A stretch of 26,768 nt of DNA from a virus: IMG/VR virus record IMGVR_UViG_3300037189_015826, positions 1-26,768 of that record. One strand, 5' to 3'. The notes below the pieces were generated by a model. That model did no database searches. It had not been told where the DNA came from and worked only from the letters and a program-made list of their open reading frames with translations. Position 1 is the stretch's first letter, and each line of letters opens with the position of its first letter. This document shows, piece by piece, positions 23,461-23,592 of the stretch. Made by a program: the position numbers and the translations under genes.

Positions 23461-23468
23461 CGTTTTCC

Positions 23469-23497
23469 TTGCTCTTTACCAAGGGCAGGGGTACGAT
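23469..23497 (+). promoter_or_regulatory. Weak candidate plus-strand promoter in the integrase leader
   Basis: TTGCTC (23469-23474), 17-base spacer, TACGAT (23492-23497). The boxes match sigma70 consensus at three and four of six positions, so this is only suggestive. It matters because it would drive a short transcript ending at the intrinsic terminator at 23544-23577. Confidence 0.2.
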
Positions 23498-23505
23498 CTC
23501 CCTGC
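23485..23505 (-). promoter_or_regulatory. Inverted repeat in the integrase mRNA leader
   Basis: GCAGGG (23485-23490) and CCCTGC (23500-23505) are perfectly complementary with a 9-base loop. In the integrase mRNA this would fold as a GC-rich hairpin 25-45 bases before the start codon. It may be an operator or an RNA control element. Confidence 0.35.
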
Positions 23506-23526
23506 ACCCTCGTGGTGTCCTTTCGA

Positions 23527-23535
23527 TTGCTAGTC
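23527..23535 (-). promoter_or_regulatory. Dispersed TTGCTAGTC motif, copy 3
   Basis: Reads GACTAGCAA toward integrase, 66 bases before its ATG. The extended word TTGCTAGTCGGT is identical over 12 bases to copy 4 at 25480. The 28-base palindrome at 23544-23571 lies 8 bases away. Confidence 0.5.
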
Positions 23536-23543
23536 GGTAGGTG

Positions 23544-23577
23544 GGCGTATGGGTCACTTGACCTATGCGCCTTTTTT
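23544..23577 (+). terminator. Strong intrinsic terminator on the plus strand / 28-base palindrome
   Basis: GGCGTATGGGTC (23544-23555), loop ACTT, GACCTATGCGCC (23560-23571), then TTTTTT. In plus-strand RNA the 12-bp stem closes with two G-U wobbles; in minus-strand RNA the same positions become A-C mismatches. This argues for selection on a plus-strand transcript, although all annotated genes here are minus. The same bases also look like a recombinase core: two 11-base arms around a 6-base centre. Confidence 0.6.
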
Positions 23578-23592
23578 ATTATCGACAACTTT

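Follow-up and report, generated by a model that had tools for sequence, protein, structure and literature searches.

The plus strand between positions 23469 and 23577 of the window, the whole 26,768-nucleotide stretch of phage DNA that we analyzed, is probably a small-RNA gene that lies antisense to the leader of the tyrosine integrase gene and whose product most likely holds the integrase down. Transcription from a weak sigma70-like promoter would start near position 23504, run through three hairpins, and stop at an intrinsic terminator, yielding a predicted RNA of ~74 nt (23504-23577, plus strand; the start is taken from the position of the -10 element and the end from the T run). Such an RNA would pair with the integrase leader over its whole length.

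Source phage and comparison set

The window corresponds to a 26.8-kb virus record in IMG/VR. Its virion and lysis genes are on the plus strand and the early genes, including those for an exonuclease VIII-like protein, an AAA ATPase, and the tyrosine integrase, read leftward. The integrase gene (22438-23460, minus strand; Pfam Phage_integrase, E 6e-24; PHROG integrase) has its leader opposite the predicted small RNA. A search of cultured phages returned no close relative, only integrases of ~24-25% identity and one weak helicase/primase match, and a search of a bacterial genome collection for the integrase returned neither a relative nor prophage kin. The comparison set consisted of the window and four uncultured phage contigs with a related integrase (n = 5, mutually related). 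L002, a 41 kb contig whose integrase shares 64% amino acid identity, was reached through the AAA protein; L015/L016, a 39 kb contig (66%), was reached through a leader DNA pattern; and L026 and L027 (44% and 46%, respectively) were reached through the nuclease gene at 15592-16008. These collection scans and pattern searches reach only relatives that carry the probed peptides or DNA words.

Two further readings of the region were considered and set aside. The first 60 codons of the integrase, inspected for extra synonymous conservation, displayed none, and an overlapping element within the integrase coding sequence was dropped on that ground; this result also counts against the small-RNA reading. 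A plus-strand protein encoded by an open reading frame at 23383-23604 was also rejected, as the reading frames of the relatives match it solely in residues encoded by the conserved RNA stretch.

A strong predicted terminator lies opposite the integrase leader

The original prediction described a textbook terminator at this site for plus-strand RNA, and our scan bears this out. The hairpin, GGGCGTATGGGTC-ACTT-GACCTATGCGCCT (23543-23572, plus strand), has a 13-bp stem and a 4-nt loop and is followed by T to position 23577, so that the terminator as a whole spans 23543-23577 with a T6 run at 23572-23577. The plus-strand fold has -22.2 kcal/mol (z -6.9), compared to -12.6 kcal/mol for the minus-strand fold. 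When hairpin plus T-tail sites were ranked on both strands of the whole window, 23543-23577 came first, with a single neighbor near it in strength (25058-25089), and a comparable terminator-like site was seen in 0 of 100 dinucleotide shuffles. A search of Rfam gave no match in the window at the gathering score; at E < 1 over 23400-25200, the sole match (24251-24307) was to an unrelated family and fell below its gathering score.

The arrangement that defines an intrinsic terminator, a G+C-rich stem-loop directly before a run of U, is kept in all five phages. The hairpin and T run stand at the same place in each of the four relatives, with the stem sequence largely rewritten and the pairing kept. 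A stem conserved without its T run, named beforehand as grounds for abandoning the idea, is not what we observed, as the run persists in every phage (TTTTTT in the window, TTTTTT in L002, TTTCTTTTT in L015, TTTTT in L026, and TTTTT in L027). The integrase-leader hairpin also ranks first or second in strength among terminator-like sites in the examined sequence of each phage. In L026, the stop codon of the upstream gene falls inside the hairpin, leaving no space between them for a separate integrase promoter.

A promoter-like layout is conserved upstream of the hairpins

A weak plus-strand promoter at 23469-23497 had been proposed before any comparison was made, so the relatives provide a fair test of it. 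The predicted promoter is there and is weak, consisting of a -35 element TTGCTC (23469-23474), a 17-nt spacer, and a -10 element TACGAT (23492-23497), and its layout recurs at the homologous place in the four relatives, as TTGCAC-17-TAGCCT, TTGCCC-17-TAACAT, TTGCCT-18-TAAACT, and TTGCCT-18-TACCCT. The pattern TTGCNN-17/18-TANNNT is thus found in all five phages, with 6-7 nt separating its end from the start of hairpin 1. It has a shuffle p of ~0.01 per relative, and 0.18% of all genomic positions pass it. Each site exceeded the 90th percentile of the best-in-60-nt background when scored with an E. coli sigma70 matrix based on published frequencies, which may not fit the promoters of the host. 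The sites are matches to a consensus only, and they are not independent, with 55-75% identity across the stretch.

A simple scan of 12000-26768 found no sigma70-like sites, compared to 13 on average in shuffles, which would fit avoidance of stray promoters or the use of other promoters by the host.

Three covarying hairpins form the body of the predicted RNA

Hairpin 1 (GCACC-CUCGU-GGUGU; 23504-23518, plus strand) and hairpin 2 (CCU-U-UCGAUU-GCU-AGUCGG-U-AGG; 23519-23541, plus strand) precede the terminator hairpin. Both are present in all five phages, with one compensatory pair in the former and three in the latter. Hairpin 2 carries an invariant GCUAGUC (23529-23535), and its G-U pairs become A-C on the minus strand. 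We built a structural alignment by hand, covering hairpin 1 through the T run on the plus strand of each phage (29 pairs), having drawn the structure from plus-strand folds before counting; the sequences are related. Across the five phages and three hairpins, 130 of the 133 base-pair cells are standard pairs on the plus strand, compared to 114 of 133 on the minus strand, and compensatory double changes occur in seven pairs distributed over all three hairpins. When the 3' letters were re-dealt, 130 cells were reached in 1 of 2,000 trials and seven double changes in 3 of 2,000. The consensus fold energies (alifold) were -34.6 (plus strand) and -26.1 kcal/mol (minus strand), and the unconstrained plus-strand fold returned the same three hairpins.

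Covariation in relatives had been proposed as a check on the stem, and with seven compensatory pairs the stem and its two neighbors withstood it. The accompanying claim that the stem keeps pairing through G-U wobbles on the plus strand only holds in full for the window, but a single A-C mismatch interrupts plus-strand pairing in each of three relatives; with 18 G-U pairs and 3 A-C mismatches in the five phages together, the plus strand remains clearly favored. Among the relatives, the minus strand folds about as well as the plus strand over a longer stretch in L015 and over the core stretch in L027.

The terminator, its T run, the promoter spacing, and the covarying three-hairpin structure are all kept down to 44% integrase identity. 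Because a conserved promoter layout, a covarying body, and a conserved terminator occur together, a small-RNA gene of ~74 nt is the simplest account, and the predicted RNA antisense to the integrase leader is well supported by these comparisons. It lies opposite the integrase leader in all five phages and, if made, would be fully complementary to it.

A short leader motif is complementary to hairpin 2

The original prediction held that a plus-strand RNA containing UUGCUAGUC would be complementary over 9-12 nt to the leaders of four other genes and fully to the integrase leader, and the copies of GACTAGCAA are exactly as it listed them. There are five exact copies on the minus strand, all in the sense orientation of leftward genes. 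The copy in the integrase leader (23527-23535), where the whole RNA is complementary, is the cis target and is kept in the five phages. The remaining four are candidate trans targets, located in the leaders of the genes starting at 13882 (13899-13907), 25453 (25480-25488), and 25824 (25839-25847) and directly before the GTG start at 22190 (22191-22199). Allowing up to one mismatch, we found 15 matches to GACTAGCAA, compared to 6.4 expected (0 of 100 shuffles). Since the integrase leader itself contains this repeated sense motif, complementarity of a plus-strand RNA to the other leaders over 9-12 nt is automatic; it is a fact about the motif and not yet evidence for regulation.

The part of the motif that is complementary to the loop and 3' arm of hairpin 2 is GACTAGC. 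In the intergenic stretches of the early strand of the five phages, GACTAGC is the top 7-mer, being present in 25 of 62 stretches, with its reverse complement in 3. Most copies outside the integrase leader are located 2-31 nt ahead of a start codon, which is within the ribosome footprint, and the motif is slightly more unpaired than its surroundings (0.56 vs. 0.46, p ~0.01). The GCUAGUC of the predicted RNA, identical in five of five phages, is complementary to GACTAGC at the ribosome-binding regions of several early leaders in each phage. Only the GCU of this seed is in the loop of hairpin 2, with the remainder held in a weak stem containing U-G pairs. In 22 control loci that have the nuclease gene in common (71-78%) and show no relative of this integrase, GACTAGC occurs at background (22 found vs. 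20.3 expected). The tag and the predicted small RNA thus co-occur, which fits targeting in trans but also a lineage-specific leader motif that is read in some other way; the tag could equally be due to a protein or to some other function of the sense strand. A stable hairpin closely precedes the tag in many GACTAGC leaders (mean z -1.38 over 21 leaders; control, 0.01).

A two-part leader motif that would extend trans pairing, with GACTAGC accompanied by GGACA at the ribosome-binding site, was rejected because its enrichment reached only p = 0.056. The gene with its start at 22190 and the related genes of L002 and L016 have an upstream GCTAG; its possible pairing with CTAGC in the tag (22175-22215, minus strand) would bury the ribosome-binding site in a hairpin, and the unpaired probability of the tag in this gene family is 0.00-0.11.

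Other elements in the region

Just downstream of the integrase gene, TCGTTAAGGCTGTATCTGTTTTAAC (22364-22388, minus strand) is identical in three phages despite diverged surroundings and is likely the attP core. With this better candidate in place, we discarded the terminator hairpin as the recombination core of the integrase. The only matches to a 20-mer from the TCGTTAAGGCTGTATCTGTTTTAAC region were in two unrelated bacterial contigs and are probably due to chance. Within the integrase gene there is an inverted repeat, GTATCACTGCATGATAC (23373-23389), and L002 and L015 have similar repeats upstream of their integrase hairpins; it is a possible operator.

The second strong terminator-like hairpin in the window, CCCTTGCCTGGTGTTACAGCACCTTGCAGGGG followed by TTTTAC (25058-25089, plus strand), is antisense to the leader of a gene that starts at 25021. 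This hairpin is kept in four phages, and within 25030-25150 its loop and the flanking GGGTGAGTGCT..CTCTCAAAATAAAACCC are strongly conserved, so that it may possibly represent another regulatory RNA. A second repeated sense motif, CTAACCCAGGATCGGCAGCRAC-like (AGGATCGG), is found at ~24003 and 25160 on the minus strand and also in L002, L016, L026, and L027, often at the stop codons of leftward genes, with 2-7 copies per phage and none antisense.

Alternative explanations for the conserved structure

The terminator might serve only as a barrier against plus-strand transcription entering the early control region, arriving either as read-through from the late genes or as host transcription through the integrase end of the prophage, with no dedicated small RNA. 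We found no strong plus-strand terminator between the end of the lysis genes (~15.6 kb) and 23572, and the likely attP just beyond the integrase means that host read-through would come in on the plus strand; the terminator-like hairpin further on at 25058-25089, on the same strand, would also suit a barrier. Such a role, however, requires neither a promoter layout 75 nt upstream in five of five phages nor two more covarying hairpins in between, and we consider it unlikely.

Still less probable, in our estimation, is that the structure belongs to the minus strand, as an element of the integrase mRNA leader in which a hairpin is followed by GACTAGC and the T run on the opposite strand is incidental. 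The stable hairpins just upstream of the tag in other leaders are what one would expect of such an element. The T run, however, is kept in five of five phages although no minus-strand use is known for it, hairpin 2 hardly forms on that strand, and the pairing is better on the plus strand by the cell counts given above, with 18 G-U pairs compared to 3 A-C mismatches. An accidental palindrome that merely resembles a terminator is in effect refuted: weak terminator-like sites are about as frequent in the window as in shuffles, but none of the 100 shuffles held one this strong, and five phages conserve it with compensatory changes.

Proposed function of the predicted RNA

We return to the small RNA antisense to the integrase leader as the preferred reading. 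The predicted RNA covers positions ~-44 to -117 of the integrase leader and leaves the ribosome-binding site outside, so any repression of the integrase must be indirect, with cleavage of the duplex or interference with transcription as the likely routes. Duplex formation could be followed by RNase III cleavage; alternatively, polymerases could collide, since the small-RNA promoter overlaps the ribosome-binding region of the integrase. Repression would make sense where an integrase sits among early genes and needs to be silenced separately, and a local antisense RNA could turn it off while leaving the neighboring early genes on. Repression of the integrase by the RNA is likely on these grounds.

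Less surely, the GCUAGUC of hairpin 2 may also pair with GACTAGC before other early genes and block ribosome entry, and control of the other leaders in trans is plausible. The earlier claim that a single antisense RNA controls the integrase and four other leaders has accordingly fared unevenly: provided that the RNA is made, it must pair with the integrase leader, but control of the others rests on the presence of GACTAGC near start codons. That the RNA acts as the hub of a regulon, turning the integrase off in cis and damping the GACTAGC-tagged early genes (~4-8 per phage) in trans, is an idea we hold only tentatively and regard as somewhat doubtful.

Comparison with known phage RNAs

Antisense RNAs are already known in phage lysis-lysogeny decisions. 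The CI RNA of P4 is a small structured RNA with loops that match short complementary stretches in leaders, and the c4 and CI RNAs are cut from the sense leader transcript under their control, one transcript each. Like the P1/P7 c4 RNA (PMC12197685) and P4 CI RNA, the predicted RNA is small and structured, with loops matching short stretches of leader RNA. Unlike them, it lies on the opposite strand and has possible targets across the early region; processing from a sense leader, as for P1 c4 and P4 CI, does not describe a structure that is favored on the opposite strand.

Phage lambda OOP RNA is antisense to cII, and P22 sar RNA is antisense to ant (PMC12197685). These are short phage RNAs with promoters of their own, antisense to a lysis-lysogeny decision gene. 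The predicted RNA resembles them in being short, phage-encoded, and antisense to such a gene, with a candidate promoter of its own; going by their descriptions, it differs in that its target, in the integrase leader, is far upstream of the start codon and in that many early leaders carry copies of the complement of its short core. In the phiRv2 prophage of Mycobacterium tuberculosis, the start sites of ncRv12659 and the integrase are 62 nt apart and on opposite strands (PMC3861185). It is likewise a prophage small RNA that starts opposite the integrase, but no intrinsic terminator was found for it, and its transcript leaves the phage and takes in host sequence (PMC3861185). STnc6030 of the Salmonella prophage BTP1 is a prophage antisense RNA that acts on incoming phage of the same kind; it differs from the predicted RNA in being 786 nt long and antisense to structural genes (PMC7067206). 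In the literature that we searched, we found no report of an RNA opposite an integrase leader with the complement of its core before many early genes, and a review of small RNAs in phages published in 2025 (PMC12197685) does not use the word integrase. OOP, sar, c4, STnc6030, and ncRv12659 are the nearest kinds, and none of those found in this literature combines a position opposite an integrase leader with a core that matches several leaders.

If the working proposed here is correct, one tiny RNA would couple integration to the remaining early program, and if the RNA does act as a hub, it would amount to RNA-based immunity or a lysis-lysogeny switch of sorts. The shortness of the motif allows a direct test by compensatory mutations in reporters, and these uncultured phages would also gain a concrete, conserved regulatory element.
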